Below are positions 6,380 to 55,966 of a stretch of DNA of 64,000 nucleotides, one piece after another. Below the pieces are notes generated by a model that did no database searches, was not told the origin of the DNA, and saw nothing but the letters and a program-made list of their open reading frames with translations. The stretch is from contig JAPPKD010000253.1 of assembly GCA_028820215.1 (NCBI GenBank), forward strand, positions 1 to 64,000, read 5' to 3'. The translations under genes were made by a program, and so were the position numbers. Numbering within the stretch: the stretch's first letter is position 1; every line of letters starts with the position of its first letter. The DNA comes from Spirochaetaceae bacterium (GTDB taxonomy: Bacteria; Spirochaetota; Spirochaetia; SZUA-6; Bin103).

Positions 6380-7930
6380 TTACTGAATCATCCCCAGCGC
6401 CTTGAACTGACGCGTCGCCTCGTCCAGGAGATCCTGTCCGCCGGCCGCCAGCCACTCGTTCATGAAGCCTTCGTAGTCGTCCGTCTCGCCGATGATGTAC
6501 TTGTACTCGAACTCCGCAGCCAGGGTGTTCAGCTCCCCGACGACCGACTGGTCCAGGTGCAGGAAGTAGGCATCGGGCGCATAGGTCTCCTCGGCCAGCG
6601 CGCCGTTGTTTAGCTCGATCTCGCTGAAGACCGTCGCCGGCAGATCGTCGGCGCTGGTCGCGGGCGTGAAGATGGTGAAGTCGGCGCGGGTCGACATCCA
6701 GTTGCCCCAGTCGGCGGCGCCCAGGAAGTTCTCGACCGACCGGTAGCGCTCCGTGCCCGGCCCGGCGATGATGGCCGTGTAGCCGCCCGGCAGCTCGTGC
6801 CGGACTCCCTTGTCTATGTCGACGCCCCAGCGGATCGCGTAGTAGCCGGGATTCGGGTAGGCGACCCCGTCGATGAGCGCCAGGATCCGTTCCAGCTTGA
6901 CGGGATCCTCCGTCGCCTGCCGGGACAGGGTGAACATGCGGTCGAAGAACCGTGGAGCGGCAAGCTTGCCTCCCTCGGGCCGTCCCTTCGGCATCGGCAT
7001 GTGCGCCCAGAGGTCCACCGATTCCTCGACGGTTCGGCCTCCCTCGTTGACGAACTCGGTGACCAGCACGCCGGGATACCAGGCGGTGCCCAGCACGCCC
7101 TGGAAGAGCGGCGCCTTCCGCTCGTTCCACGCGATCGTGTACCAGTTCGGCTCGATCACGCCCTCCGCGACGGCAGCTCGCATGAAGTCCAGGAACGCAT
7201 GCTCGGTTCCGTCGACGACGTAGTGCGAGGCCTGCCCGCCGGCGATGTAGAAGTCGGTCGGTCCCCACATCAGCTTCAGGTTCCTGATCTCGCCGACCCC
7301 CTGGCCGTTGCCGGCCGACGTCAGTCCCCAGGTGTCGTCCTGGCCGTTGCCGTCCGGGTCGTCGTAGGTGAAGGCGCGCGCCACGCTCATCAGCTCGTCG
7401 GCCGTCGCCGGTATCTCCAGGCCGAGGTTCGCCAGCCAGTCCTTGCGGATCTGGAAGCCCCAGATGTTCGGCGGCCCGGCGGTCGACAGCGCGGTCAGCT
7501 TTCCGTCCTTGGTCAGATAGTCCTCCGCGTAGTCGTCCATGTATTCCATCCACGTCGGCAGGCTGGCCGCGTGCTCGTTCCAGTCCTCCAGCAGAAAACC
7601 CTCGTCGTAGAGCTGGGTCAGGAACGCCTCGCCGGTGGCGCCGGCACTGAACTTGACGATGTCCGGCGGGTCGTTGGTGGCGAATCGGGTCAGGATCTCA
7701 TTGTTGAACTCCGCCGTGTTGTTCATGGTGATGTCCACGCCGAAGGTCTCGTTGAGATAGGCGCGGAACGGGTCGTTCTCGTCGGTCGGCTGATTGACCC
7801 AGCCGCCGAACATCAGCTCGATCTCCGGCACCTGGTCCGCGGCTCCCTCTTCCTCGCCGGAAGCCCAGGCAAGGTGGGAGAGCGCCAGAAACGTCGCGAC
7901 CCCGACGGCCACGAATCTGATATTTTTCAT
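6380..7930 (-). CDS. Carbohydrate ABC transporter, extracellular solute-binding protein
   Basis: A 516-residue substrate-binding protein of the LplA-like type that accompanies LplB/LplC permeases. The mature start is preceded by a signal peptide (basic start MKNIRF, hydrophobic core, likely cleavage after AWA at residue 23). No lipobox cysteine is seen, so it may be periplasmic rather than a lipoprotein. The chosen ATG at 7930 has an AGGAG six bases upstream; the open frame extends further but lacks support. Aromatic-rich segments later in the protein fit sugar binding. It would deliver an oligosaccharide to the two permeases encoded just upstream. No ATPase gene is in the locus, so a shared MsmK-type ATPase is likely. 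Confidence 0.88.
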   Translation of the reverse strand: MKNIRFVAVGVATFLALSHLAWASGEEEGAADQVPEIELMFGGWVNQPTDENDPFRAYLNETFGVDITMNNTAEFNNEILTRFATNDPPDIVKFSAGATGEAFLTQLYDEGFLLEDWNEHAASLPTWMEYMDDYAEDYLTKDGKLTALSTAGPPNIWGFQIRKDWLANLGLEIPATADELMSVARAFTYDDPDGNGQDDTWGLTSAGNGQGVGEIRNLKLMWGPTDFYIAGGQASHYVVDGTEHAFLDFMRAAVAEGVIEPNWYTIAWNERKAPLFQGVLGTAWYPGVLVTEFVNEGGRTVEESVDLWAHMPMPKGRPEGGKLAAPRFFDRMFTLSRQATEDPVKLERILALIDGVAYPNPGYYAIRWGVDIDKGVRHELPGGYTAIIAGPGTERYRSVENFLGAADWGNWMSTRADFTIFTPATSADDLPATVFSEIELNNGALAEETYAPDAYFLHLDQSVVGELNTLAAEFEYKYIIGETDDYEGFMNEWLAAGGQDLLDEATRQFKALGMIQ

Positions 7931-7977
7931 TACGATTCTCCTGTCGTGTCTCTTATCGTGGTTGTTGCGATGAGGCA

Positions 7978-8007
7978 CACTGCCTCCCTGGGAGCACTGC
8001 CTCCCTG
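7978..8007. repeat. 17-nt period tandem duplication in the permease/solute-binding protein gap
   Basis: One full 17-nt unit (7978-7994) is followed by 13 matching bases (7995-8007). Read on the coding (reverse) strand it duplicates a GGGAGGCAGTG element that resembles a Shine-Dalgarno followed by GTG. It lies between the permease stop and the solute-binding protein start. Confidence 0.7.
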
Positions 8008-8035
8008 TGTCGACTACGGGCGGCCGACGCCGACC

Positions 8036-8914
8036 CTATTCCTTGACCGATCCCGTATACACCCCCTTGATGAAATACCTCTGCAGAAACGGATAGACGC
8101 ACATGATCGGCACGATCCCCACCACGGTCACGGCCATCTTCACGCTGACCGGCGTCGAGCGGATCGCGGGATCCAGGAGGAGCTGTCCGCCGGCGAACGG
8201 ATTGCTGGCGATGTTGAAGATGCTGCGCAGGTATAGCATGAACGGCCTGAGCTCCTGGTCCTTGGTGAACACCAGGGCCGTGAACCACTCGTTCCACAGG
8301 TCGACGGCCGTGAACAGGGAGAGAGCGGCGATCACGGGCTTGCTCATCGGTGCGTAGATCCTGAAGGCGATGGTGATCTGGCTGGCGCCGTCGATGTCGG
8401 CCGACTCCTCGATCTCTCCGGGGACGTTCTGGAAGAACTGCTTGAAGACCAGCACGTTCCACGCGCCGATCATGCCCGGCACGATCAGGGCCAGGAACGT
8501 GTTGTAGATGCGGGTGTGGAACACGGCCAGGTAGGTGGGTATGAGCCCGCCGCTGAACAGGAACGTGACGAGCACGAGCGTGATCAGCACGTTCCTGCCG
8601 ATCATGTCCCGCCGCGATGCGGCGAAGCCGGTGACCATCGCCCAGAACACGCCGAGCGCCGTTCCGGACAGGGCGCGGAGCACGCTCACGAAGAAGCTGT
8701 GGAACAGGATCGGGTTCTTCAGCACCGTCTGGTAGCCGTTGAGGATGGGGCGGTCGACCCACAGGAGGATGCCGCCCTTGCTGACCCACTCCGCCTCGCT
8801 GACGAATGACAGGACCACGACGTAGAACAGCGGAAAGAACGAGGTGAGCGATACCAGCGCCACGACCGAGATGACCCCGATCTGGTAGCTCAGCTCCGTG
8901 CCCTGCAGCTTCAC
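8036..8914 (-). CDS. Carbohydrate ABC transporter permease (LplC/YtcP-like)
   Basis: An inner-membrane permease of about 292 residues with six predicted hydrophobic spans. It contains the cytoplasmic EAA-type loop (ADIDGASQITIAFRIYAP) that contacts the ATPase. The GTG at 8914 is chosen because an AGGAG lies eight bases upstream and the length is then typical; the open frame could extend to 8977 but would overlap the upstream permease. It forms a heterodimer with the product of the adjacent gene for sugar import. Confidence 0.87.
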   Translation of the reverse strand: MKLQGTELSYQIGVISVVALVSLTSFFPLFYVVVLSFVSEAEWVSKGGILLWVDRPILNGYQTVLKNPILFHSFFVSVLRALSGTALGVFWAMVTGFAASRRDMIGRNVLITLVLVTFLFSGGLIPTYLAVFHTRIYNTFLALIVPGMIGAWNVLVFKQFFQNVPGEIEESADIDGASQITIAFRIYAPMSKPVIAALSLFTAVDLWNEWFTALVFTKDQELRPFMLYLRSIFNIASNPFAGGQLLLDPAIRSTPVSVKMAVTVVGIVPIMCVYPFLQRYFIKGVYTGSVKE

Positions 8915-37550: not shown

Positions 37551-37589
37551 GCCCGTTTGACGAGCCCGCTTGACGAGCCCGCTTGACGA
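37551..37589 (+). repeat. 13-nt tandem repeat, three copies
   Basis: Copies at 37551-37563, 37564-37576 and 37577-37589 match except for one base in the first. Each contains TTGACG, a -35-like hexamer, but no matching -10 elements follow. Confidence 0.85.
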
Positions 37590-37634
37590 GCCGCGCCGTC
37601 GCTCGGTACGTTCTGGAGCAAGCCCCGAAGCGGA

Positions 37635-37872: not shown

Positions 37873-38247
37873 GTGCCGACGATAAACCAGCTTGTCCGGA
37901 ACGGACGCAAGCGCAGCACCAAGACCAGCAAGAGTCCTGCGCTCCAGTCATGCCCGCAGAAGCGCGGTGTATGCACGAGGGTGATGATCGTCACCCCGCG
38001 CAAGCCGAACTCCGCTTTGCGCAAGGTGGCGCGCGTGCGTCTGGTTTCGGGGGTCGAAGTGACCGCCTACATTCCCGGGATCGGGCACAACCTGCAGGAG
38101 CACTCCGTCGTTCTGATCCGGGGCGGACGCGTCAAGGATCTGGCGGGTGTCCGCTACCACGTGGTACGCGGGGCCAAGGATACGCTCGGTGTCGACGATC
38201 GGCGTCGCGCGCGATCGAAGTACGGCACCAAGCGGCCGAGGTCCTGA
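37873..38247 (+). CDS. rpsL: 30S ribosomal protein S12
   Basis: A 124-residue decoding-centre protein. [11 protein letters not shown] and [19 protein letters not shown] are conserved. The residue equivalent to E. coli Lys43 (counting Met) is Arg43, in [11 protein letters not shown] where the usual form is [11 protein letters not shown]; Lys88 is unchanged. Arg at this position is a well-known streptomycin-resistance allele. The start is GTG with GGAG close upstream. Confidence 0.97.
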
Positions 38248-38297
38248 GGGCCGTATCCGGACAGTTCGTAGCGGGATAATTCAGGGAGTTCACGGAA

Positions 38298-38768
38298 ATG
38301 CCCAGACGTAGCGTAAGTACGCAGCGGCGCGACGTGCGCGATGCGCGATTTCGCGACCCGCTTGCGGGACGGTTCATCAACAGCATGCTGCTGCGCGGCA
38401 AGAAGTCGCTGGCGGCGCGCACGTTCTATCAGGCGCTCGACTTCCTTGACGGCAAGGGAGAGGGAGATGCGATCGAGATGTTCCACAAGGCGGTGGACAA
38501 CATCAAGCCGATGCTGGAAGTGAAATCGCGGCGCGTGGGAGGATCCACCTACCAGGTGCCGGTGGAGGTTCGCGAAGACCGCCAGGTCGCGCTCGCGATC
38601 CGCTGGCTGCTACAGTTCGCGCGTGCCCGTCGCGGGCGCACCATGGCCGAGCGGCTGGGCGCCGAGTTCCTGGACGCCTACAACAACACCGGCTCGGCTG
38701 CCAAGAAGAAAGAGGACACGCACCGGATGGCCGAAGCCAACAGGGCGTTCGCCCACTACCGCTGGTAG
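38298..38768 (+). CDS. rpsG: 30S ribosomal protein S7
   Basis: A 156-residue 16S-binding assembly initiator. The [11 protein letters not shown]-terminus, [13 protein letters not shown] and [20 protein letters not shown] are typical. It lies 50 nt after rpsL. Confidence 0.97.
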
Positions 38769-38810
38769 CACGGCATCGCTGGCAGGCGGCAGGTCACAGG
38801 TAGGGCACCG

Positions 38811-40946
<2,136 letters not shown>

Positions 40947-40992
40947 GGAGTCCAGGGTTCGTCGAGGAGAACAGGCCAAGGAGACACAAGGG

Positions 40993-42183
<1,191 letters not shown>

Positions 42184-42214
42184 GGCGACAGGGGAGACTG
42201 GCTGGTACCGGGCG

Positions 42215-42523
42215 ATGGCTACGGAACGGATTCGGGTGCGCTTGCGCGGGTTCGACATAGAGCTCGTGGATCAAAGTTCACGGGCGATCGTGCAGACCGT
42301 GCAAAAGGCGGGGGCGCGCGTCGCGGGTCCGATCCCGCTGCCGACCCGGATCAACAAATTCACGGTGCTCCGATCCCCGCACGTCTACAAGAAGTCGCGT
42401 GAGCAGTTCGAAATGCGGACTCACAAGCGGCTCATCGACATCCTGGAGCCAAGCAGCGCCGTCATGGATGCGCTGATGAAGCTTGAGCTTCCGGCCGGCG
42501 TCGACGTCGAGATCAGGCAGTAG
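42215..42523 (+). CDS. rpsJ: 30S ribosomal protein S10
   Basis: A 102-residue first gene of the S10 cluster; ends [15 protein letters not shown]10 is also NusE and binds NusG. The central [20 protein letters not shown] segment is diagnostic. Confidence 0.97.
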
Positions 42524-42535
42524 GGAGCGTGCGGC

Positions 42536-43183
42536 GTGGTAGCGGTAGTTGGCGTCAAGGTGGGAATGACGCAGGTATTCGACGATGCGGGCGCGGCGCG
42601 CCCGGTGACGCTGGTGCGAGTCGAACCAAATGTCGTGATCGGCACGCGCGTTGCCGCAGGTGACGGGTATGACGCCGTCGTGCTGGGCTGGGGGACGGCT
42701 CGCAAGCGGCGGTTGACGAAGCCGTTTGCCGGTCAGTTCCCGGAGGGCATCGATCCGACGCGACGCATCATGGAGTTGCGCGGCTTCGACGGAGAGTTCG
42801 AGGTCGGGAAGCCGCTGGACCTGTCCATCTTTTCCGACCGGCGCTTCGTGGATGTCCAGGGCGTGTCGCTCGGGAAGGGTTTTCAGGGCGTGATCAAGCG
42901 TCACGGGTTTCGGGGCGGCCGAGCGACGCACGGCTCCAAGTTCCATCGCGCCGGCGGGTCCACCGGTCAGTCGGCGTGGCCGTCGCGGGTGCTGAAGGGC
43001 ACACGCATGGCGGGGCGCATGGGTGGCCGGCGCGCCACGGTGCAGAACCTCGAGCTGCTGCGCATCGACCAGGAGCGGCGGCTGCTGATGATCGCCGGAC
43101 CGATTCCCGGCCGCCGCGGCGGGCATGTGTTGGTGGCGAGCGCGAAGAAGAAGCAGGGCGGCCGGAACGGGAGTGCGGAGTGA
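42536..43183 (+). CDS. rplC: 50S ribosomal protein L3
   Basis: A 215-residue core protein. GFQGVIKRHGFRGGRATHGS is the conserved loop and GRMGGRRATVQNL follows. It starts at a GTG 12 nt after rpsJ. The TGA overlaps the rplD GTG. Confidence 0.96.
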   Translation: MVAVVGVKVGMTQVFDDAGAARPVTLVRVEPNVVIGTRVAAGDGYDAVVLGWGTARKRRLTKPFAGQFPEGIDPTRRIMELRGFDGEFEVGKPLDLSIFSDRRFVDVQGVSLGKGFQGVIKRHGFRGGRATHGSKFHRAGGSTGQSAWPSRVLKGTRMAGRMGGRRATVQNLELLRIDQERRLLMIAGPIPGRRGGHVLVASAKKKQGGRNGSAE

Positions 43184-43830
43184 AGGTTCCGGTTTTGGGC
43201 CCGGACGGCAATCCTTCCGGAGAGATCGAGTTGGACGACCGGGTCTTCGACATCGAGGTCTCGGACGGGGCCATCCATGCGGCGCTGCGCAATGAGCTTG
43301 CCAATCAGCGCGTCGGCACGGCGGCGACCAAGCGCCGCGGCCAGGTGCGCGGCGGTGGCCGCAAGCCCTACCGGCAGAAGGGTACGGGGCGGGCGCGCGC
43401 GGGATCGAGGCGATCACCGCTGTGGGTCGGCGGCGGCATCACCTTTGGCCCGCAGCCGCGCGACTACCGGTATCGGATACCGCGCAAGGTGAAGCGACTG
43501 GCCATACGTTCGGTGCTCACGTCCAAATGCCGGGGGAACCAGTTGATGGTGGTCGACGGCGTGCAGTCCGCTTCGGGCCGCACGCGTGAGCTCGCGGCGA
43601 CGATCGATGCCCTGTCGCCGGGACTGAAGACCGTGTTGGTGTTGGGCGCCGACGACCCGATGACGCGGCGCGCGGGACGCAATCTGTCTTCCTTGCGCAT
43701 TCTTTCCAGCCAACGGCTCCGGGTGCACGAACTGCTGTACGGAGACCGGGTGCTGCTGCAGCGCGAAGCCGTGGCGCGATTGAACGCCGGATACGGCGGC
43801 GCAGATCTGGAGGCCGACGATGGCGGGTGA
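43180..43830 (+). CDS. rplD: 50S ribosomal protein L4
   Basis: A 216-residue protein lining the exit tunnel. GGGRKPYRQKGTGRARAGS is the conserved extended loop. The GTG at 43180 overlaps the rplC stop and gives the usual length. The end overlaps rplW by 11 nt. Confidence 0.95.
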   Translation: MKVPVLGPDGNPSGEIELDDRVFDIEVSDGAIHAALRNELANQRVGTAATKRRGQVRGGGRKPYRQKGTGRARAGSRRSPLWVGGGITFGPQPRDYRYRIPRKVKRLAIRSVLTSKCRGNQLMVVDGVQSASGRTRELAATIDALSPGLKTVLVLGADDPMTRRAGRNLSSLRILSSQRLRVHELLYGDRVLLQREAVARLNAGYGGADLEADDGG

Positions 43831-44100
43831 GATTATCCTCGAGCCGCTGGTGACCGAGAAATCCAACTCCTTGCGCGAGGCCGGCAAGTACAGCTTCCGC
43901 GTTGATCCGCGCGCCTCCAAGCAGCAGGTGCTCGCGGAGGTGCGGCGGCTGTTCGACGTCAAACCGGTTCGCTGCAACATCATCAATGTCCCCCGCAAGC
44001 CGAAGCGGGTTCGCTACCGGCGCGGTTACACAGCCTCGTGGAAGAAGGCGATCGTGACCCTGTCCGGTGACCAGACCATCGAAATCTTCGAGGGCGTCTG

Positions 44101-44101
<1 letters not shown>
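43820..44101 (+). CDS. rplW: 50S ribosomal protein L23
   Basis: A 93-residue tunnel-exit protein that docks SRP and trigger factor. EPLVTEKS at the start and [12 protein letters not shown] in the loop are typical. It overlaps both neighbours. Confidence 0.95.
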
Positions 44102-44918
<817 letters not shown>

Positions 44919-44922
<4 letters not shown>

Positions 44923-44954
44923 CCACGCGCGAGACCGGAAGGATGACGAGGTAG
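44919..44954 (+). other. Bridging minicistron rplB to rpsS (11 codons)
   Basis: ATG overlapping the rplB TGA opens a frame ([11 protein letters not shown]) that stops three bases before the rpsS ATG. The rpsS Shine-Dalgarno (GAGG) lies inside it. It may keep terminating ribosomes in contact with the next start; it could also be chance. Confidence 0.35.
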
Positions 44955-44957
44955 ATT

Positions 44958-45239
44958 ATGTCACGATCGATCAAGAAAGGGCCGTTCGTGTCGCCGGGCC
45001 TGTTCAAGCGGGTGATCGAGGCCTCCAAGTCCTCCGGCAAGCAGATGGTCAAGACGTATTCGCGCTGCTCGACGATCATCCCGCAGATGGTCGGGATGAC
45101 CATCTCGGTCTACAACGGCAAGAATTGGATTCCGGTCTACATCACGGAGAACCTGGTGGGGCACAAGCTCGGCGAGTTCGCTCCGACGCGGGTATTTCGA
45201 GGGCACGCGGGGTCGGATCGCAAGGCGGTGCGGCGCTGA
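44958..45239 (+). CDS. rpsS: 30S ribosomal protein S19
   Basis: A 93-residue 30S head protein. RSIKKGPFV at the N-terminus, [14 protein letters not shown] and the C-terminal [13 protein letters not shown] are conserved. The stop shares one base with the rplV start. Confidence 0.97.
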
Positions 45240-45592
45240 TGGTCAGGGGCAAGCAGGGCTACACGGCCCACAGCAAGTTCCTGCGTATTTCGCCGAGCAA
45301 GGTGCGCCCCCTCGCCGATCTGGTTCGTCGCCAGCCCTATGCCGAGGCGCTGGCGCTACTGGAGACGATGCCGCACAAGGGCGCCGCGCTCCTGCGCAAG
45401 ACGATCAAGTCGGCCGGCGACAACGCACTGTTTCAAAATGAGGATCTCGACGAGGAGACGCTGTACGTCCGCGAGCTGCAGGTGCTCGACGGTCCGCGCC
45501 TGAAGCGCATCTGGGTGCGCGGGCGCGGCCGAGCAGATCGCCAGGTGAGCCGCCTCTGCCATATCTCGGTAGCGGTGGAGGAGATGAGCTAG
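45239..45592 (+). CDS. rplV: 50S ribosomal protein L22
   Basis: A 117-residue tunnel protein. FLRISPSKVRPLADLVR and the beta-hairpin segment precede the end of the gene. The ATG overlaps the rpsS TGA by one base. Confidence 0.95.
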   Translation: MVRGKQGYTAHSKFLRISPSKVRPLADLVRRQPYAEALALLETMPHKGAALLRKTIKSAGDNALFQNEDLDEETLYVRELQVLDGPRLKRIWVRGRGRADRQVSRLCHISVAVEEMS

Positions 45593-45593
45593 T

Positions 45594-46292
45594 ATGGGAC
45601 AGAAGGTCAATCCGACCGGGCTGCGCATGGGGATCAACCAGTCATGGCGCAGCAAGTGGTACGTGGACCCGCGCGAATACGCGGCGACGCTTCACGAGGA
45701 TCTGTCGTTGCGCAAGACGATCGACACCGCTCCGGAGACGCGCGGCGCGGACATCGCCCAGGTGGAGATCATCCGCCATCCTCAGCGCATCGCACTGATC
45801 ATCCACACCGGCCGCCCCGGCGTCGTGATCGGAGCCAAGGGGCAGAACATCGAGCGGCTGGGTTCCAAGCTGCAGCGCCAGGTCGGCAAGAAGATCCAGA
45901 TCAAGATCAAGGAGATCCAGCGGCCCGAGACCAACGCCCAGTTGATCGCGATGAACATCGCGCGCCAGTTGCGAGGGCGGGCGTCGTTCCGGCGGGTCAT
46001 GAAGATGGCGATCAACAACGCGATGCGCGCCGGCGTACAGGGCATCAAGATCCGGGCCGGCGGACGGTTGAACGGCGCGGAGATGTCGCGCGTCCAGCAG
46101 TACAAGGAGGGACGCATCCCGTTGCACACGTTCCGCGCCGACATCGAGTACGGATTCTCCGTGGCTATCACCACGGTCGGAACGCTGGGCATCAAGGTAT
46201 GGGTCTTTCACGGCGAGGTGTTTGGCCGCGACAAGAAGGACGACGCGGGGCTGCTCCTGAAGCGGCAGCGCGGCCGTGAGGAGGCAGCGTAA
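45594..46292 (+). CDS. rpsC: 30S ribosomal protein S3
   Basis: A 232-residue mRNA-entry protein. MGQKVNPTGLRMGI at the start and the KH motif VIGAKGQNIERL are clear. The ATG is one base after the rplV stop. Confidence 0.97.
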   Translation: MGQKVNPTGLRMGINQSWRSKWYVDPREYAATLHEDLSLRKTIDTAPETRGADIAQVEIIRHPQRIALIIHTGRPGVVIGAKGQNIERLGSKLQRQVGKKIQIKIKEIQRPETNAQLIAMNIARQLRGRASFRRVMKMAINNAMRAGVQGIKIRAGGRLNGAEMSRVQQYKEGRIPLHTFRADIEYGFSVAITTVGTLGIKVWVFHGEVFGRDKKDDAGLLLKRQRGREEAA

Positions 46293-46295
46293 CCG

Positions 46296-46727
46296 ATGCT
46301 GGCTCCAAAGCGGGAGAAGTTTCGCAAGCGCCAGCGCGGCGGGCCGCTACGGCGCGGCGGGGAGCGCCAGCAGGAATTGGCGTTCGGTGATTTCGGTCTG
46401 ATCGCGCTCGAACACAAGTGGATCACCAACCGGCAGATCGAGGCCGCTCGGGTGGCCATGACCCGGCACGTGAAACGGGGTGGCAAGGTATGGATACGGA
46501 TCTTTCCCGACATGCCTTACACCATGAAACCTGCCGAAACGCGCATGGGGAAGGGCAAGGGCAACGTGGAGTACCACGTCGCGCCGGTCAGACGCGGTAC
46601 GGTCATGTTCGAGCTCGCCGGCGTGGAGACCGATCTGGCGCGGGAAGCGCTCACGCTGGCCGGCAGCAAGCTGCCGATCAAGACGACGATCTGTGTGCGC
46701 GGCAGCGTGTTCGCACCACAGGCATGA
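46296..46727 (+). CDS. rplP: 50S ribosomal protein L16
   Basis: A 143-residue protein near the A-site t[19 protein letters not shown] and GRAM-like basic stretches identify it. The final ATGA is the first copy of a tandem repeat that leads to rpmC. Confidence 0.96.
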
Positions 46728-46770
46728 GGACAGTGTTGGCATGAGGACAGTGTTGGCATGAGGACGGTGG
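46724..46770 (+). repeat. 17-nt tandem repeat between rplP and rpmC
   Basis: Two identical 17-nt units (46724-46740 and 46741-46757) are followed by a diverged partial third copy. The period equals six codons minus one base, which is exactly what an ATGA hand-off needs. Confidence 0.9.
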
Positions 46771-46775
46771 CGTGA
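46724..46775 (+). other. Three-step minicistron relay between rplP and rpmC
   Basis: Three tiny ORFs follow in succession. MRTVLA (46724-46744) starts on the ATGA of the rplP stop; MRTVLA (46741-46761) starts on the ATGA of the first stop; MRTVA (46758-46775) starts on the second stop and its TGA overlaps the GTG of rpmC. Each contains an AGGA about ten bases before the next start. The arrangement is seen directly; a coupling role is inferred. Confidence 0.5.
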
Positions 46776-46972
46776 AGGAACAGTATGGTGAGCTCGCCTA
46801 CCCGGAGCTGCTGCTCAAGCATGACGAGCTGGTGTCGGAGTACCGCAAGGCACGGTTCGACGCGGTGGTCGGCCACCTGGACAATCCGGTCAGTGTCCGC
46901 GTGCTGCGCCGAAGGCTGGCTCGCGCCAAGACCATAATCAATGAGTACGAGCTGGGGATTCGACAGCGATGA
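46772..46972 (+). CDS. rpmC: 50S ribosomal protein L29
   Basis: A 66-residue helical protein near the tunnel exit. The coiled region around ELLLKHDELVSEYRKARFD and the LRRRLARAKTIINE C-terminal helix fit L29. It starts at GTG and its stop forms ATGA with the next minicistron. Confidence 0.93.
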   Translation: MKEQYGELAYPELLLKHDELVSEYRKARFDAVVGHLDNPVSVRVLRRRLARAKTIINEYELGIRQR

Positions 46973-46986
46973 ATGGAACGGAATGA
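46969..46986 (+). other. Bridging minicistron rpmC to rpsQ (5 codons)
   Basis: ATG on the rpmC stop encodes MNGTE and its TGA overlaps the rpsQ ATG. Both ends are ATGA. Confidence 0.35.
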
Positions 46987-47240
46987 GTAGCACGGAACGT
47001 CTTCGCGTACTGGCAGGAACGGTAGTCTCGGATCGCATGGACAAGACGATCGTGGTCCTGGTCAGTTCCCAGAAGCGCCATCCGATGTACGAGAAATACA
47101 TCCGCAGGTCCAAGCGCGTGAAAGCGCACGATGCGGACAACGCCTGCCGCATCGGCGACCGCGTCCGGGTCGTGGAATCGCGGCCGCTGAGTCGCGACAA
47201 GCGGTGGCGGCTGCTGGAGATCTTGGAACGGAGCAGCTGA
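46983..47240 (+). CDS. rpsQ: 30S ribosomal protein S17
   Basis: An 85-residue primary 16S binder. [14 protein letters not shown] and [12 protein letters not shown] are diagnostic. The ATG at 46983 is preferred over 46941, which would add 14 residues inside rpmC. The stop overlaps rplN by one base. Confidence 0.94.
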
Positions 47241-47608
47241 TGGTACAGGCGATGAGCTATCTCAACGTCGCGGACAACTCGGGCGCCAAGCGCGTGCAGT
47301 GCATCAAGGTACTCGGCGGCACGCGCCACGTAAGCGCCGGGGTCGGCGATCGGATCGTGGTGACGGTCAAGACCGCGATACCGTCCGCCACGGTACGCAA
47401 GGGCACGGTAGTGCGGGCGGTGATCGTGAGGACGCGGAAGGAGACGCGCCGAGTCGACGGCTCATACATCCGCTTCGACGACAACGCCTGCGTCCTGATC
47501 GACGAGGCCGGCAATCCGTCCGGAAAGCGTATCTTCGGTCCGGTCGCGCGGGAATTGCGCGATCGTGACTACATGAAGATCGTCTCCCTGGCACCGGAGG
47601 TGCTGTAA
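47240..47608 (+). CDS. rplN: 50S ribosomal protein L14
   Basis: A 122-residue protein, the normal length from this start. [20 protein letters not shown] and [17 protein letters not shown] are clear. L14 is also the target of the silencing factor RsfS. Confidence 0.97.
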
Positions 47609-47609
47609 C

Positions 47610-47978
47610 ATGGCGCGCAAGCGTGGAGTCGGCCGCGCGCAGGTGCGGGTACGACTGCGCCGTGATGACCAGGTGGTGGTGATCGCCGGCAGGGAGCGGG
47701 GCAAGACCGGCCGCGTGTTGCGCATCGACATCGATCGGCAGCAAGTGGTCGTGGAGGGGCTCAACCTGGTGAAGAAGGCGATACGACCCACTCAGCAGCG
47801 CCAGCAGGGAGGCATCTCCGAGATCGAGGCGCCTATCCACCTGTCGAACGTGATGCTGAGCACGCCGGAGGGACGCTCGAGGATCCGGTATGAGACCGGT
47901 GGTGCCGGTGCCTCCGGCGGGGGCAGCAGCGGTGAGGGCACTCGCCGCGTCGCCGCGCGTACGGGGCAGGAGCTGTGA
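47610..47978 (+). CDS. rplX: 50S ribosomal protein L24
   Basis: A 122-residue assembly initiator with a KOW motif ([18 protein letters not shown]) and [15 protein letters not shown]. The C-terminal 25 residues are Gly/Ser/Ala/Arg-rich and longer than usual. The TGA overlaps the rplE GTG. Confidence 0.94.
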
Positions 47979-48580
47979 GCAAGAACAAAGCCGGCAATGG
48001 AACGGCAAGCGGGAACGGCGACGCCAGAGGCGGGTACGTGCCGCGTCTGCGCGCCCTGTACCGGGACACGGTTGCGCCGGCGCTGATCGAGGAGTTCAGC
48101 TACGACAGCGCCATGCAGGTCCCCAGGCTGACCAAGATCCTGCTGAGCATGGGCGTCGGCATGGCTCCCACCAATCGCCAGCTCCTCGACACCGCGGTTA
48201 ACGAGCTCACGCTGATCGCCGGCCAGCGGGCGGTGACCACGCGCGCGCGGCGCTCGATCGCAGCGTTCAAGATCCGGGCCGGAATGGAGATCGGCGCGAT
48301 GGTGACCCTTCGCGGCGATCGCATGCTGGAGTTCCTCGATCGTTTCGTGAACGTGGCCGTGCCCCGCATCAAGGACTTCCGTGGTCTGTCCCCCAACTCA
48401 TTCGACGGAAGAGGCAACTACTCGGTGGGGGTCGATGAACAGATCATCTTTTCCGAGATCGACTACGATCGCATCGACTCGATTCATGGACTCAACGTCA
48501 CCATCGTTACCTCGGCGCATACCGACCGGGAGGGCCGCAGTCTTCTCGCCGGATTGGGAATGCCGTTCCGCAGCGAGTGA
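47975..48580 (+). CDS. rplE: 50S ribosomal protein L5
   Basis: A 201-residue 5S rRNA-binding protein. [27 protein letters not shown] and [18 protein letters not shown] are conserved. An N-terminal Gly/Asn-rich extension of about 15 residues precedes the family core. The stop opens a GTGA minicistron. Confidence 0.95.
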
Positions 48581-48675
48581 CGGACTGCACGGCGGTGAAG
48601 AGGATCAGGATGGTACGGACCGCGACGGGCGGGCAGGACGGAGTCCGGGCCCGCGCATGGACGATGGAGGTATAG
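48577..48675 (+). other. 32-codon frame exactly filling the rplE-rpsN gap
   Basis: GTG overlapping the rplE stop opens a 32-codon frame whose TAG abuts the rpsN GTG directly. The rpsN Shine-Dalgarno GGAGG is inside. Rich in Arg, Thr and Gly; no domain recognised. Confidence 0.35.
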
Positions 48676-48861
48676 GTGGCACGCAAGGCACTGATCGTGC
48701 GCGCGCAGCGCAAACCCAAGTTCTCGACACGCAAGGTCAACCGGTGCCGCTGCTGCGGGCGGCCACGGGGCTATCTGCGTCGTTTCGAGATGTGTCGGAT
48801 CTGCTTCAGAGATCTCGCCAGCCGGGGACTGATACCCGGCGTGACGAAGTCGAGCTGGTAG
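48676..48861 (+). CDS. rpsN: 30S ribosomal protein S14, zinc-binding type
   Basis: A 61-residue C+ S14 with CxxC pairs at Cys24/Cys27 and Cys40/Cys43, and the ending [11 protein letters not shown]. Start GTG with GGAGG seven bases upstream. Confidence 0.97.
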
Positions 48862-48865
48862 TCCC

Positions 48866-49264
48866 GTGGGTGTGACCGATCCGGTAGCGGACATGCTGGC
48901 CAAGATCCGCAACGCGGGCATGGCCGGCCACGAGAGCGTGGATATCGTGCCCTCGAAGTTCAAGTTGGAGATCGTCAAGACGTTGAAGACCGAGGGCTAC
49001 GTGCGCAACTTCAAGCGCGCCGGCCAGGACGGTCAGGGACCGGTGCGCGTGTTCCTCAAGTACGACGACCAGCGCAGGCCGGTCATCCGCGGAATGCAGC
49101 GGATCTCGAAGCCGGGGCGCCGGGTGTATCGGAGCTATCGCACCATGCCTCGTATCCTGAACGGGTATGGGACACTGATCGTCTCCACCTCGTCGGGCGT
49201 GATCACCGGCCGCAAGGCCGCTCAGCAACAGGTCGGCGGCGAGCTGATCTGCAGTGTGTGGTAG
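48866..49264 (+). CDS. rpsH: 30S ribosomal protein S8
   Basis: A 132-residue 16S-binding protein. [13 protein letters not shown] and the C-terminal [23 protein letters not shown] region are conserved; S8 represses spc operons in other bacteria. GTG 48866 is used; GTG 48872 would remove two residues. Confidence 0.96.
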
Positions 49265-49268
49265 CCGG

Positions 49269-49817
49269 ATGTCACGCGTAGGAGTGTTGCCGATTCCGGT
49301 GCCGACGGGAGTCGAAGTGGCGGTGCATGACAGGCAGGTGGACGTTGCCGGTCCCAAGGGCACGCTCAGCACGTCGTTGCCCGATGTCGTGCGGGTCGAT
49401 GTCGCGGACGGAACGGTCGCCGTCAGCCGAGCCGACGATGAACGGTCCTCGCGGGCGGTGCACGGTCTGACCCGCAACCTGATCGCCAACATGGTGACCG
49501 GGGTGTCGACCGGGTTCACGCGGGAGCTTCTCATCAACGGGGTGGGGTACCGTGCGGAGGTTCAGGGGACGACGCTGGTCGTCGACGCCCGCTACTCGCG
49601 GCCGGTCCAGTTGCAGATTCCGGACGACCTCGCCGTTCAGGTGGAGGGCGGCAATCGTATCCAGATCTCCGGCGTCGACAAACAGCGTGTCGGCCAGTTC
49701 GCCTCGGATGTCCGGTCGGTACGGCCGCCGGAACCGTACAAGGGCAAGGGCATCCGCTACGCGGACGAGCACGTGCGCCGCAAGGTAGGAAAGTCGGCCG
49801 TGGGAGGTGCCGACTGA
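49269..49817 (+). CDS. rplF: 50S ribosomal protein L6
   Basis: A 182-residue two-domain protein. MSRVGVLPIPVPTGVEV at the start and PPEPYKGKGIRYADE at the end are diagnostic. The stop overlaps rplR. Confidence 0.96.
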   Translation: MSRVGVLPIPVPTGVEVAVHDRQVDVAGPKGTLSTSLPDVVRVDVADGTVAVSRADDERSSRAVHGLTRNLIANMVTGVSTGFTRELLINGVGYRAEVQGTTLVVDARYSRPVQLQIPDDLAVQVEGGNRIQISGVDKQRVGQFASDVRSVRPPEPYKGKGIRYADEHVRRKVGKSAVGGAD

Positions 49818-50170
49818 TGGGTGCGCCGGCCAAGGTGGTGCGTCGTCTTCGGCGCAAGCGGAGCATTCGTGGTAAGGTGCGCGGCACCGCCGTGCGGCCG
49901 CGGATGACGGTTTTCAAGAGCAACCGATACACCTACGTTCAGGTGATCGACGACGACGCAGAGCGTACCGTGGTGGCGGTTTCGAATCGGGAAGCGGCGG
50001 TCGATGTGCCCAACCGGGTGACCGACCTCGGCCGGCTCGGTGAGCTCGCGGGCGAACGATTGCGCGCGAGTGGGATACGGAGTGTGGTGTTCGATCGCAA
50101 CGGCTATCCCTATCACGGCAAGATCAAGGCGATCGCGGACGGCGCACGCAAGTCCGGCATCGCATTGTAG
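49817..50170 (+). CDS. rplR: 50S ribosomal protein L18
   Basis: A 117-residue 5S rRNA binder. [23 protein letters not shown] is the basic N-terminus, and [20 protein letters not shown] matches the C-terminus. Confidence 0.95.
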
Positions 50171-50187
50171 GATTTCGAGGGGTAACG

Positions 50188-50697
50188 GTGGGCGACAGAG
50201 ACCGGGAACGCGGCGACCGGGGTGAGGGATTCGAGAAACTCGTTCGCCTCAACCGAATTGCCAAGGTAGTGAAGGGAGGCCGCAGATTCTCGTTTTCTGC
50301 GGTGATGGTGGTCGGTGACCGCAACGGCCATGTCGGCGTCGGGTTCGGCAAGGCTGCCTATGTGGCCGACGCCATTCGCAAGGGTTCGGAACGGGCGCGG
50401 CGCAACATGGTGAGAGTTCCGATGCGGGGCGGCACTCTGCCGCACCAGGTCAACGGTGTGTTCAAGGGGGCGAAGGTGCTGCTGAAGCCCGCAGCTCCGG
50501 GAACCGGCGTGATTGCCGGCGGTCCGGTGAGGGCGGTGCTCGAGGCGGCCGGCGTGCGCGATGCGCTCAGCAAGTCGCTGGGCTCGCAGAACTCGATGAA
50601 CCTGGTGAAGGCCGTGTTTCAGGGCCTGGGTCAGATCATGGAAGCCTCGGAAGTTGCCGCCCGCCGTGGCAAGACCGTTTCGGAGCTGTGGCGATAG
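50188..50697 (+). CDS. rpsE: 30S ribosomal protein S5
   Basis: A 169-residue fidelity protein. [16 protein letters not shown] and [14 protein letters not shown] are conserved. GTG start after GAGGGG. It is the one longer junction (17 nt from rplR) not spanned by an RTGA minicistron. It overlaps rpmD. Confidence 0.96.
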
Positions 50698-50921
50698 TGG
50701 CTGCCATCGGCACCGAAGGCCCCCTGCGGCTCACCGACGGCGCGCGCGTGCGCGTGACGCTCGCCCGGAGCGTTATCGGGCGCAGCCCCAGGCATCGGGC
50801 CACGGTTGAGGCGCTCGGGTTGCGCGGCATCGGCTCGTCGGCCGAGCACACCGCCTCCGCGCCGATCATCGGCATGATCCGCAAGGTGCGCTACCTGCTT
50901 GCGATCGAGGAGATCTCATGA
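50688..50921 (+). CDS. rpmD: 50S ribosomal protein L30
   Basis: A 77-residue L30. The family core begins around [26 protein letters not shown], preceded by about 20 extra residues. GTG 50688 or GTG 50697 could be the start; both overlap rpsE. The end forms ATGA with rplO. Confidence 0.88.
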
Positions 50922-51451
50922 GCGAACCTGACAGCACCGTGGATGCGCCGCGGGTCCGCCGGCCGGCCGGCGCCGTACGCAAGCGACGCGTCGTCGGCCG
51001 CGGCTCGGCGAGCGGGCATGGCGGCACCTCGGGACGTGGAACGAAAGGACAGCGGGCCCGCGCCGGCAGCGGCGTTCGCCCCACCTTCGAGGGCGGGCAG
51101 ATGCCGCTGTACCGGCGTATCGCGCGCCGCGGCTTCAGCAATCACCCGTTCCGGAATGTCCACGAGGTATTGGATGTCCGCGATCTCAACCGCTTTGCGG
51201 ACGGGGCCACCGTCGACCGGCAGGCGCTCCTGGAAGCCGGCATGATCGGATCGGCCGGCGTGCCGGTCAAGCTGTTGGGCTCGGGAGAACTCGAACGTGC
51301 GCTCACCGTACGCATCGATCGCGCGTCCTCCGGCGCTTGCCGGAAGGTGACGGCCGCCGGTGGCACGATCCATCTGACCGATGCCGCCGCTGATGCTTCG
51401 CCCGATGACGCTCCGGCGTCGGATGGAACCGCAGGCGACGAGTCGGGCTGA
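50918..51451 (+). CDS. rplO: 50S ribosomal protein L15
   Basis: A 177-residue protein. GRGSASGHGGTSGRGTKGQRAR is the classic Gly/Arg-rich N-terminus (shown in part here), and FEGGQMPLYRRIARRGF follows. The last 25 residues are an Ala/Asp-rich acidic tail. The TGA overlaps secY by one base. Confidence 0.94.
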   Translation: MSEPDSTVDAPRVRRPAGAVRKRRVVGRGSASGHGGTSGRGTKGQRARAGSGVRPTFEGGQMPLYRRIARRGFSNHPFRNVHEVLDVRDLNRFADGATVDRQALLEAGMIGSAGVPVKLLGSGELERALTVRIDRASSGACRKVTAAGGTIHLTDAAADASPDDAPASDGTAGDESG

Positions 51452-52767
51452 TGGCTAATCCGCTGCTCGACATCTTTCGGATCCGCGACCTGCGGGAACG
51501 AATCCTCTTCACGGTCATGATCCTTGTGATATTCCGGATCGGCGCGTTCCTGCCGATCCCCGGGATCGATGTCAGCACCGTCAAGAACTTCTACGCCGCG
51601 CAGCAGTCGGGCGGCATCGGCATTACGGACTACTTCGACTTCTTCTCGGGCGGCGCATTCACGAACTTCTCCGTCTTCATGTTGGGAATCGTGCCGTACA
51701 TCACCACGTCGATCATGATGCAGCTCCTGGTCCTGGTGTTCCCGAAGCTGAAGAAGATCTCCCAGGAGGATGGCGGCAAGAAGCGCATCCAGCGGTACAC
51801 CCGGATCGCTACGGTCGGCGTTTGTCTCATTCAGTCCTTGACCGTCACGACCTTCGCCGGCCAGATCCCCGGTGCGATCATCATGGATCGCATCCCGTTC
51901 ACGATCCTGGCTACCGTCACCGTGACCGCCGGCACGATCTTCCTGATGTGGCTGGGGGAGCAGATCACGCAGCGTGGCATCGGCAACGGCATATCGCTGC
52001 TGATCTTCGCCGGAATCGTCGCCCGCATCCCGGACGCGATCTACCTCATGATCAACCAGGTGCAGCGTGGCGACTTGAATCCGGTCTTCTTCGTCCTCGT
52101 GCTCGGCGCGTTCGTCGGAGTGATCTCGCTGGTCATCTACGAACAGCAGGGACAGCGAAGGATCCCGGTCAACTACGCCAAGCGGGTGATCGGCCGCAAG
52201 GTCTACGGCGCGCAGAACGCCTATCTCCCGTTCAAGATCAACCCCTCGGGAGTCATCCCGGTGATCTTCGCTTCTTCGGTCCTGATCTTCCCGCTGCAGA
52301 TCGCGCAGAACCTGGGCGGCGGCGTGCCGTGGCTCTCGCGCTTCGCGGCATGGCTGACGCCGAACGGCGTGCCGTACATGCTGTTCTACGCGCTGTTGAT
52401 CGTGTTCTTCGCCTACTTCTACACGCAGGTCACGCTGAACCCGGTCGAGATCAGCAAGCAGATCCGCGAGAACGGCGGCTCGATCCGCGGCATCAGCTCC
52501 GACAACATGACGGAGTACCTGACGCGGATCCTGAACCGGATCATCTTGCCGGGAGCGCTGTTCCTGGCGGTCATCGCCATCATTCCGTCCATCATCCAGG
52601 CGTTGTTCCGGTTTCCATCCAGCGTCGCCTTCCTGATGGGCGGCACGTCGCTGTTGATCATGGTCGGCGTCGACCTGGACACGATGAGTCAGATCGAAGG
52701 GCATCTGAAGATGCACCATCACGACGGGATCGTTCGCAAGGGCCGCGTACGGGCCCGCAATCTGTAG
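51451..52767 (+). CDS. secY: Preprotein translocase subunit SecY
   Basis: A 438-residue channel with ten transmembrane segments. Plug and lateral-gate regions include GALFNFSVF-type sequence (here [10 protein letters not shown]) and the C-terminal [10 protein letters not shown]. It forms the protein-conducting channel with SecE encoded upstream in this window. Confidence 0.96.
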
Positions 52768-52775
52768 AGGTCATC

Positions 52776-52889
52776 ATGAAGGTCAGGGCCAGCGTGAAGA
52801 AGATGTGCGCGAAGTGTAAGGTCATCAGGCGTCGCGGCGTCGTCCGCGTCATCTGCGACAACCCGAAACACAAACAGCGACAGGGGTAA
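52776..52889 (+). CDS. rpmJ: 50S ribosomal protein L36
   Basis: A 37-residue zinc-ribbon protein. It reads [19 protein letters not shown] then [14 protein letters not shown], with three Cys and one His as zinc ligands. GAGG precedes the ATG. It was found by direct translation because it is too short for ordinary ORF calling. Confidence 0.96.
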
Positions 52890-52893
52890 CGAC

Positions 52894-53274
52894 ATGGCGA
52901 GGATCGCGGGGATCGACCTGCCGAACAAGCATGTGAGCGTAGGCCTGACCTACATCTTTGGAATCGGAGCGCCTTCGGCGGCTGCGATCTGTGACAAGAC
53001 CGGGATCGCCCGGGACCGGATGCTGAACGACCTGGCACCGGAAGAGGTCAACGAGTTGCGGCGCGTGATCGAGAGCGACTACGTGGTCGAAGGGTCGTTG
53101 CGCACCGAGGCGTCGCTCAACATCAAGCGGCTGATGGACATCGGCTGTTATCGGGGCATACGCCACCGGCGCGGACTGCCGGTGCGCGGACAGCGTACGC
53201 GAACCAACGCGCGCGGGCGCAAGGGCAGCAAGAAGACGGTCGCGGGCAAGAAGAAAGCGCCCACCGCCAAGTGA
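52894..53274 (+). CDS. rpsM: 30S ribosomal protein S13
   Basis: A 126-residue head protein. [29 protein letters not shown] and a Lys-rich C-terminal tail identify it. The stop opens the 23-codon minicistron in the gap to rpsK. Confidence 0.97.
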
Positions 53275-53342
53275 CGACAGGGCTGATTCGGCGGACAGGG
53301 CCGATTCGACGGACAAGACTGGTAAAGGACGGTTGCGAGTAA
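53271..53342 (+). other. 23-codon bridging frame with hexapeptide repeats
   Basis: GTG overlapping the rpsM TGA opens a frame that ends five bases before the rpsK ATG. The predicted peptide carries TGLIRR, TGPIRR and TRLVKD in succession, from an 18-nt tandem repeat. Confidence 0.4.
53277..53330 (+). repeat. 18-nt tandem repeat in the rpsM-rpsK gap
   Basis: Units 53277-53294 and 53295-53312 match at 16 of 18 positions; 53313-53330 is a more diverged third copy. All keep the minicistron frame. Confidence 0.75.
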
Positions 53343-53347
53343 CGTAG

Positions 53348-53725
53348 ATGGCAAAATCGAAAGGCAAACGGGACCGGGCGGTCAGCGAGGGGAACGTCTA
53401 TATCCAGGCGACCTTCAACAACACGATCGTGACGATCACCGACCTTATGGGAAACGCGGTGTCGTGGGCTTCGGCGGGCTCTCTCGGGTTCCGCGGGGCG
53501 AAGAAGTCCACTCCGTTCGCGGCGCAGACGACCGCTGAGACCGCCGCGCGGAAGGCGATGGACTACGGCCTGATGGAGGTCAACGTGTTCGTCAAGGGTC
53601 CCGGTGGGGGCGGCGAATCGGCTGTTCGGTCCCTCGGGGCGCTCGGCCTCCGCGTGCGCACGATTCAGAACGTCACGCCGATTCCACACAACGGCTGCCG
53701 GCCGCAGAAGAAGCGGAGGGTGTAG
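53348..53725 (+). CDS. rpsK: 30S ribosomal protein S11
   Basis: A 125-residue platform protein. [17 protein letters not shown] and [13 protein letters not shown] are diagnostic. The ATG follows the bridging frame by five bases. Confidence 0.97.
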
Positions 53726-53727
53726 CG

Positions 53728-54363
53728 ATGGCTCGCTACATCGGCCCTGCCTGCCGGCTTTGCCGAGCGGAAGGGGTAAAGCTGTTCCTCAAGGGGGCGC
53801 GCTGTCATTCCGACAAGTGTCAGATCACCAGGCGGCGCGGCAAGCCGGGCAAGGCCCCGCGGGCCCGCATGCAGAAACTGTCGGACTACGGCATGCAGCT
53901 TCGCGAGAAGCAGCGCGTGAAGCGCATGTACGGAATGCTGGAACGACAGTTCCGCATCTTCTTTGATCGCGCCAACCGGCAGCGCGGCGTTACCGCGGAG
54001 AACTTGGTGCGCATGTTGGAGCAGCGCCTCGACAACGTAGTATACCGCATGCACTTCGCCAGTTCGCGCAAGCAGGCGCGGCAGCTCGTCTCGCACGGTC
54101 ACGTCATGGTCAACGACCGGCGGGTGACCATCCCGAGCTATCTGGTACAGAAGGACGACGTGCTGGAGTTGCAGGAGCGGGGCAAGATGATGACCGCGGT
54201 CAAGGACAGTCTGAAGGAGTATTCCCGCTCCGGAACGCTGCCATGGCTGGAGGTCGACCCGGATGCGGTCCGTGGTCGGGTCCTGGCTCTGCCACGGCGG
54301 GCCGACGTCCCGGATCTCGAAGGCGTCAACGAGCAGCTGATCGTCGAGCTGTATTCCAAGTGA
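53728..54363 (+). CDS. rpsD: 30S ribosomal protein S4, zinc-binding type
   Basis: A 211-residue 16S primary binder. Cysteines 9, 12, 26 and 31 (CRLC and CHSDKC) form the zinc site of C+ S4. The S4 RNA-binding domain includes [17 protein letters not shown]. The stop forms GTGA with a three-codon frame (VRG) whose TGA overlaps the rpoA ATG. Confidence 0.97.
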
Positions 54364-54370
54364 GGGGCTG

Positions 54371-55543
54371 ATGGCGAGAAAAAACCTCTTGAAGGGGCTC
54401 AATCGGCCGACCGGTATGGTCTTCGAGCACACCGACGTGGATGCCTCCTACGGGAAGTTCATCGCGTATCCGTTCGAGCGGGGCTATGGCGCGACCATCG
54501 GCAACAGCCTGCGGCGCATTCTGCTTTCGGGAATCCAGGGGTATGCGATCACGGCCGTGCGGATCGCCAGCCGCGAGGAGGACGGATCATCGCACACGGT
54601 TTCCAGTGAATTCGAGCCCATTCCTCATGTCGTCGAAGACACGCCGGATATCATCAACGCCCTTAAGCAGATCAGACTGGCGCTGGACGAAGGGGTGGAG
54701 GAGCGGACGGTGTACGTGGAAGCGTCCGGCCCCAAGACGCTGGTCGCCGGCGATCTGGCGGTGGACACGGGCATAGTGGTGACTACGCCGGAGCTGGCGA
54801 TCGCCACCCTCATGGAAGACGCGAATCTCGAGTTCGAGGTGCAGATCGAGTTCTCGCGTGGTTATCTGCCGGCGGAGAACAGCGAACGCTTCATCGACAT
54901 TGTAGGCACGATTCCGATCGACGCTCTGTTCTCGCCGATCACGCGCGTGAAGTACGCGGTGGAGAACACCAGAGTCGGCCAGCGGACCGACTACGACAAG
55001 TTGGTGCTGGAGGTGTGGACGGACGGCACGCTCAAGCCTGAGGACGCGGTCGCGGAGGCGGCCAAGATCGCCAAGGACCACTACACGATATTCATCAACT
55101 TCGAGGAAGACGAGGTCGGCGACCACGAGGAGCTCGATCTCGAGGACGAACGGCTGCGCCGCTTGCTCGATACCCCGGTCGAAGAACTGGAGCTGTCGGT
55201 GCGTTCCAGCAACTGCCTGCGGAACGAGAACATCCGCACGATCGGCGACCTGACGCGCAGGACCGAGGAAGAGATCGCCAAGACGCGAAATTTCGGACGG
55301 AAGTCCCTCGACGAGATCAAGAAGCGGCTGGAAGAGCGTGGGTTGCAGCTTGGCATGAGCGACTACAGCGCGGTGCGGCAGCAGCTTGCCAGCGCCGAAT
55401 CGGTCGCTCCCGCCACGGGTGAGGGGGGCGATGAGGCAGCGGTCGGCAACACGGAGGCAACGGTGGGCGGCACCGAGGCAACGGTGGGGACCGAGGCCGC
55501 GGCGGGCGCTGAGGTTGCGGCGCTTGACGAGACCGACGAGTGA
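54371..55543 (+). CDS. rpoA: DNA-directed RNA polymerase subunit alpha
   Basis: A 390-residue subunit. The N-terminal dimerisation domain has [19 protein letters not shown]. The C-terminal DNA/activator-binding domain includes [15 protein letters not shown]. Beyond it lies an extra acidic Ala/Thr/Gly-rich tail of roughly 55 residues containing repeats ([14 protein letters not shown]). This makes the protein longer than the usual 320-350 residues. Confidence 0.96.
55445..55486 (+). repeat. 21-nt tandem repeat in the rpoA tail
   Basis: Units 55445-55465 and 55466-55486 encode GNTEATV and GGTEATV. A shorter third copy (GTEAAA) follows. Confidence 0.75.
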
Positions 55544-55584
55544 GCATCATGTACGGAAACCGGTGCATCCTAGGGGTGGAGTGA
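55540..55584 (+). other. 14-codon bridging frame rpoA to rplQ
   Basis: GTG overlapping the rpoA TGA opens a frame that ends one base before the rplQ GTG. No family recognised. Confidence 0.3.
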
Positions 55585-55585
55585 A

Positions 55586-55966
55586 GTGAGACATCGCGTC
55601 GGCTACAATCCGCTCGGCCGCACGCCGAGCCACCGCAAGGCGCTCCATTCCAACATGGTGGCGGCGCTGTTCCGGCACGAACGCATCCGCACCACCCGTG
55701 CCAAGGCACTTGCCGTGCGTCGCAGCGCGGAGAAGATGATTACGCGCGCCAAGCACGACAGTGTGCACAGCCGGAGAATCATCGCGCGGCGCCTGCATGA
55801 TCCGGCGGTGCTGGCCAAGCTGTTCGATGTCCTGGGACCTCGCTTTCAGAGCCGTCCCGGCGGATATACGCGTGTGCTGAAGCTCGGCCCGCGATACGGC
55901 GATGCCAGCGAGATGGTGATCCTGGAGTTGCTCGACCGGCCGGTCGATACGGAAGAAGCTCCCTGA
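55586..55966 (+). CDS. rplQ: 50S ribosomal protein L17
   Basis: A 126-residue protein. [19 protein letters not shown] is the conserved N-terminal region, and [19 protein letters not shown] is near the end. GTG start with AGGGG upstream. Last gene of the alpha cluster. Confidence 0.96.

Follow-up and report, generated by a model that had tools for sequence, protein, structure and literature searches.

A 17-nt tandem array at a spirochaete rplP-rpmC junction encodes a series of ATGA-linked minicistrons that may relay ribosomes from L16 to L29

Coupling of neighbouring genes through overlapping stop and start codons is textbook biology, and engineered versions exist in synthetic bicistronic design leaders, in which a short leader cistron overlaps the start of the main gene in a single step. 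The reach of such coupling has been measured in E. coli. In excerpts from one study, the last 15 nt of the upstream gene suffice for re-initiation in the two gene pairs tested, and a distance of +38 nt abolished re-initiation in one of three pairs and cut it by 80-90% in the other two (PMC10666635). Excerpts from a review describe coupling that falls roughly 3- to 10-fold as the distance nears +40 nt, and add that some studies report longer-range coupling (PMC12548453). According to part of a report on integrons, a short ORF in attC carries ribosomes between cassette genes by termination-reinitiation, with attI1 ORF-11 as a further case (PMC8876359).

The junction described here lies in a 64,000-nt stretch of DNA (the window) from a Spirochaetaceae bacterium, a high-GC organism (67%) whose best L16 matches likewise point to the spirochaetes. 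On the + strand, rplP (L16, 143 aa; 46296..46727) ends GCA TGA, and its stop (TGA 46725-46727) sits inside an ATGA whose ATG opens a first minicistron, MRTVLA (46724..46744; ATG AGG ACA GTG TTG GCA TGA). A second, identical frame begins at the ATG at 46741 (MRTVLA; 46741..46761), and a third, MRTVA (46758..46775; ATG AGG ACG GTG GCG TGA), closes in a GTGA overlap on the GTG start (46772-46774) of rpmC (L29, Pfam PF00831; 46772..46972). The first-pass annotation had described three ATGA-linked minicistrons joining rplP to rpmC, the last of them overlapping the rpmC GTG, and we confirmed this letter by letter.

The minicistrons run along a 17-nt tandem array (46721..46769, + strand; TRF period 17, 2.9 copies, 96% matches), whose score of 91 is the highest among 48 tandem-repeat rows in the window. 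Steps along the array measure 17, 17 and 14 nt rather than three times 17, the third unit differing from the others by two substitutions and one codon deletion. Four NTGA links thus stand in series, each a 4-nt stop/start overlap within the -4/-1 distance typical of coupled pairs, and each short ORF opens at an upstream stop and closes at a downstream start, as expected of a bridging minicistron. The rplP-to-rpmC distance itself is +44 nt. No other in-frame rpmC start is present between the array and the upstream stop at 46742-46744. The 17-nt unit resembles the start of rpmC itself only weakly (620 of 20000 shuffles were as good), and we do not claim that it arose there.

Relatives were collected through L16, which gave a match in 360 of 394 genomes from the class of one spirochaete match and in 60 of 61 relatives of the best of those genomes in a second search; two further classes, with L16 in 42/46 and 43/46 genomes, have their junctions outside the survey given below. 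The closest genome found, G150, is collinear with the window neighbourhood at 85% DNA identity over 32 kb. It shares the rpmC GTG start, and its rplP and rpmC meet in a direct GTGA overlap without an array. Aligned to G150, the window carries a 48-nt insertion at rplP-rpmC. The L16 relatives P0001-P0006 are 142-143 aa long versus 143 in the window (P0002-P0006 compared as proteins, P0002-P0005 being at 87-90%). The position of the rplP stop is therefore old and roughly ancestral, and the insertion lies 3' of it.

For the junction survey, 203 sequences of spirochaetes and other phyla were reduced to 159 distinct loci, and both genes could be located in 111 of these. The rplP-rpmC gap falls between -11 and +12 in 110 of these junctions and is +44 in the window alone. 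Ten junctions, including that of G150, are at -4 and three at -1; the rest are at -11, -8 or +1 to +12, and the overlap is not kept across relatives. Because G150 has no array and the other 110 gaps are at most 12 nt, the array looks recent rather than conserved, as if an overlapping junction had been duplicated not long ago in this lineage alone. The earlier suggestion that repeat copy number tunes the L16/L29 ratio gains no support from these data. The proposed check for varying copy number in relatives returned gaps too short for a 17-nt unit and no second copy-number state: the lineage is represented by a single sequence, the window, and G150, at 85% DNA identity, has zero copies.

An array known from one sequence could be an artefact of assembly or sequencing. 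We regard this as very improbable, given that the third unit has diverged from the first two, that the neighbourhood is collinear with G150 over the full 32 kb, and that similar duplications are present in another assembly.

The predicted Shine-Dalgarno strengths differ along the chain. Upstream of minicistron 1 there is no notable Shine-Dalgarno (-2.5 kcal/mol), whereas each of minicistrons 2 and 3 has AUGAGGAC 9 nt 5' of the ATG (-6.0 kcal/mol), and rpmC has a Shine-Dalgarno-like GAGGACGGT within the last repeat (46760..46768, + strand; -8.5 kcal/mol versus -9.7 in G150). As rpmC has such a sequence of its own, coupling need not be required. Another proposal is that the repeats serve as extra Shine-Dalgarno or start sites, which would bring ribosomes to rpmC, keep them close to it or protect the mRNA, without any hand-off; mini-ORFs of six and two codons are discussed in such a role in part of one report (PMC8708949). 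Units 1 and 2 do place AUGAGGAC before the next ATG, as this proposal would have it. It is nevertheless an improbable account, since minicistron 1 is poorly provided, the -6.0 kcal/mol of minicistrons 2 and 3 is weaker than the value of 10 of the 13 window genes scored alongside, and RNA folding of 46690-46810 gave a stability that is not unusual (z +1.30). Rfam gave no match at gathering scores over 38000-54500, and viral and plasmid collections gave no match.

The first-pass annotation had also argued that a period of six codons minus one base lets every duplication add a hand-off. This logic is right and turns out to be general. When tandem duplications of 8-45 nt holding the overlap were simulated at 70 G150 junctions, 34% gave a relay, 33% an in-frame extension and 33% a broken link, and lengths of 3k-1 gave a relay in 7232 of 7280 cases. 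The outcome is a frame rule for the growth of operon junctions, in which a 3k duplication lengthens the protein, 3k-1 makes a relay and 3k+1 breaks the link. With relays arising in 34% of simulations, the ‘designed’ look of the chain needs little explaining, and no design is required.

Relays of this kind recur. A second, separate one lies immediately downstream on the + strand, where the minicistron MNGTE (46969..46986) is joined by one ATGA to the stop of rpmC and by another to the start of rpsQ. It was made by an imperfect 14-nt tandem duplication (46969..46996; 11/14) that is absent from G150, in which rpmC-rpsQ is a direct ATGA overlap; 12 of 20000 shuffles were as good, or 245 of 20000 with ATGA held. 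The start of rpsQ (S17; 46983..47240) was placed at the ATG overlapping the minicistron stop, just as the G150 start overlaps the rpmC stop, and the rpsQ frame is also open upstream to 46941. In another genome, G014, a 14-nt duplication (13/14 identical) at rplP-rpmC makes ATGA-MKLEA-ATGA; G074, closely similar around this junction, has a direct ATGA overlap there. G014 also has a two-step relay in the 75-nt gap of a permease pair (PF00528; ABC, oligopeptide; L257:17959-18041, contig C15). Here, the 3' end of the upstream gene is repeated in two degraded copies, which open on the upstream GTGA stop and close on an ATGA start. The steps measure 38 and 41 nt, each of the form 3k-1, and the copies are alike at 0 of 20000 shuffles. 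The unequal steps inside one array differ by exactly 3 nt in both cases (17/14 and 38/41). As a side observation, the peptides of the permease copies still resemble the LDPRVRY tail.

At rplR-rpsE, 15-nt tandem repeats in L129 (G190) and L127 (G014) appear, from their frame, to lengthen the S5 N-terminus. An 18-nt duplication at rplF-rplR in L034 includes the GTGA stop of the upstream gene without the start of the downstream one, and was left out of the five spanning duplications counted below. Separately, L127 and L128 (G014 and G074) have, after rpmC and ahead of the conserved portion of rpsQ, about 400 nt that look like coding sequence rich in Ala, Pro and Glu; S17 may have a long N-terminal extension there.

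Several other gaps in the window have repeats or relays. An 18-nt tandem repeat (53276-53315) without an ATGA chain lies in a 50-nt insertion at rpsM-rpsK. A 13-nt repeat of 3.2 copies (37551-37592), which contains TTGA, lies in the long gap after rpoC, a gap beyond the length covered by the junction survey. Between minus-strand genes, the gap 7930-8036 holds a 17-nt tandem duplication (15/17 alike) with an upstream TAG stop and no chain. The gap 55543-55586, after the gene 54416-55543 and apparently rpoA-rplQ, holds a two-step relay of 14 and 2 codons in which no repeat was seen.

When 2465 gapped junctions were scanned without bias for a repeated downstream start region, 13 rows reached a score of at least 24, and in six the copy included a start codon: the window (14 nt), the permease pair (41 nt), G014 rplP-rpmC (14 nt), two rplR-rpsE junctions (15 nt) and one G150 junction (16 nt), the last with a non-overlapping TAG upstream stop. 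The scan's own shuffles scored as high in 26 of 100 cases for G014 rplP-rpmC, a duplication that rests on 13/14 identity, and in 28 of 100 for the 16-nt G150 junction, because the short copy sits in the unshuffled part. Start-region duplications at an NTGA stop, taken from the scan plus rpmC-rpsQ, number five, and comprise four relays, one in-frame extension and no broken link. Under the simulated thirds, finding none broken has p ~0.13 and finding at least four relays p ~0.05. The lack of broken links is no more than suggestive of selection on phase, at a small sample size and with partly biased discovery: rpmC-rpsQ was noticed in the alignment to G150 and missed by the scan, and the permease case was first noticed in a list of relays and then recovered by the scan.

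Gap phase was also tabulated and is not used as proof. Junctions with NTGA on both sides have gaps of 0, 1 and 2 modulo 3 in 4, 16 and 8 cases (1925 junctions, gaps of 3-60 nt) and in 5, 13 and 1 cases in G150 (gaps of 1-80 nt). In-frame cases are absorbed by start calling, the genomes share ancestry, and a skew is also seen in the controls, which have NTGA on the upstream side only (12/23/21 in the 1925 junctions, 9/14/17 in G150).

The frequency of relays depends on their length. Relays of at least one step are near chance, at 28 of 1925 junctions in ribosomal clusters (gaps of 1-160 nt in 1516 of them) versus 21.8 +/- 3.2 in gap shuffles, and at 16 of 204 gapped junctions in G150 versus 12.8 +/- 1.5, where 17 of 500 shuffles were as high; an enlarged set gave a plain count of 39 of 3086. 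Chains of at least three minicistrons came up 0.145 times per set in 200 shuffles of the 1925 junctions, or ~1e-4 per gapped junction, under a null that ignores tandem duplication, the array's origin. Across the junction surveys, a three-step relay is found in the window only. Relays of at least two steps total seven in three sets versus 1.36 expected: 3 of 257 junctions in G150 (0.66 expected, a count equalled or exceeded in 5 of 300 shuffles), 2 of 30 in the window, namely the array and apparently rpoA-rplQ (0.15; 1 of 300), and 2 of 100 in G014 (0.55; 24 of 300), with shuffles that keep base composition only and starts that are script-called. Downstream starts in all surveys were called by script, so the surveys carry start errors, and the gene caller missed some known window genes. 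The excess of multi-step relays favours selection or an unmodelled bias. Two-step relays elsewhere are mostly without obvious repeats, and the architecture does not need them.

These results bear on the main alternative, that the array is neutral slippage debris, its ATGA chain a one-in-three outcome of frame, with de novo initiation of rpmC at the GAGGA of the final repeat. This is a serious possibility, if short of an even chance. Simulated spanning duplications yield relays at the 34% rate with no selection applied, the 11 tandem duplications that were scored among the junctions of G150 include none with a 3k-1 period, and the nearby repeats at rpsM-rpsK (18 nt) and after rpoC (13 nt) form no chain; in addition, the rpmC Shine-Dalgarno reaches -8.5 kcal/mol and none of the relatives surveyed has the chain. 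Debris does not, however, readily account for the lack of any 3k+1 duplication among the five at overlapping junctions, for recurrence at one junction in two genomes, for degenerate permease copies that remain linked, or for multi-step relays in excess of shuffles.

We rate the relay somewhat above neutral debris. The best reading, to which we give marginally better than even credence, is that duplications arising by slippage were retained, or at least tolerated, when their phase left termination-reinitiation intact. The ancestral rplP-rpmC junction would have been a 4-nt GTGA overlap, probably translated by termination-reinitiation, and slipped-strand tandem duplication of the segment containing it would have produced the 44-nt gap. 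With steps of 3k-1 nt (17, 17 and 14), each copied start reads to a stop in the next copy, and a ribosome finishing L16 could restart on minicistrons 1, 2 and 3 and then on rpmC without scanning. Duplications in this phase would be kept or tolerated because the hand-off is preserved, whereas 3k steps lengthen the downstream protein and 3k+1 steps break the link. Re-initiation through the minicistrons is plausible from their arrangement; we infer their translation, the transfer of ribosomes and selection on phase. Given the loss of re-initiation near +38/+40 nt in E. coli, a 44-nt gap should remove most of the coupling to rpmC, unless ribosomes use the chain or rpmC initiates by itself.

A broader and more doubtful proposal is that junction-spanning duplication plus phase selection is a recurrent route to multi-step relays, coupling genes across gaps of 44-75 nt. 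If so, the gaps bridged would be as long as those at which re-initiation is reportedly almost lost in E. coli gene pairs, and the window and G014 would hold natural ladders of one, two and three rungs. If ribosomes do walk the chain, it would be a natural test of re-initiation without scanning, with the efficiency per step readable from ladders of 0-3 rungs, and would bear on the disputed scanning and local re-initiation models, as far as these are set out in excerpts of PMC10666635 and PMC12548453.

How does the array compare with described systems? The first-pass annotation knew of no example of such a relay. For a multi-step relay encoded by tandem repeats this holds, none being found in the openly licensed PMC literature among the matches listed; it does not hold for a single bridging short ORF, which is known from integron attC in the part of PMC8876359 cited above. 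As in the 4-nt-overlap coupled pairs described in parts of PMC10666635 and PMC12548453, every link is an NTGA overlap, and the G150 junction is such a pair by sequence; the window differs in having three extra serial links, short frames without a known product. As with the attC ORF, a short ORF bridges a gap, seen in the window from its sequence, but attC as excerpted has one ORF and no repeat array, and its links need not be 4-nt overlaps (PMC8876359). The axe-txe minigene is likewise a mini-ORF preceding an operon gene and affects translation in cis, yet in the portion of the report at hand it has two codons and forms no chain, and mRNA protection is proposed for it (PMC8708949). The tandem repeat at G190 rplR-rpsE also begins on an ATGA overlap; its period of 15 nt, unlike that of the window array, appears to lengthen S5 rather than make minicistrons. 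Bridging by a single ORF is already known, and what is new, against the literature matches listed, is the multi-step chain built from repeats.
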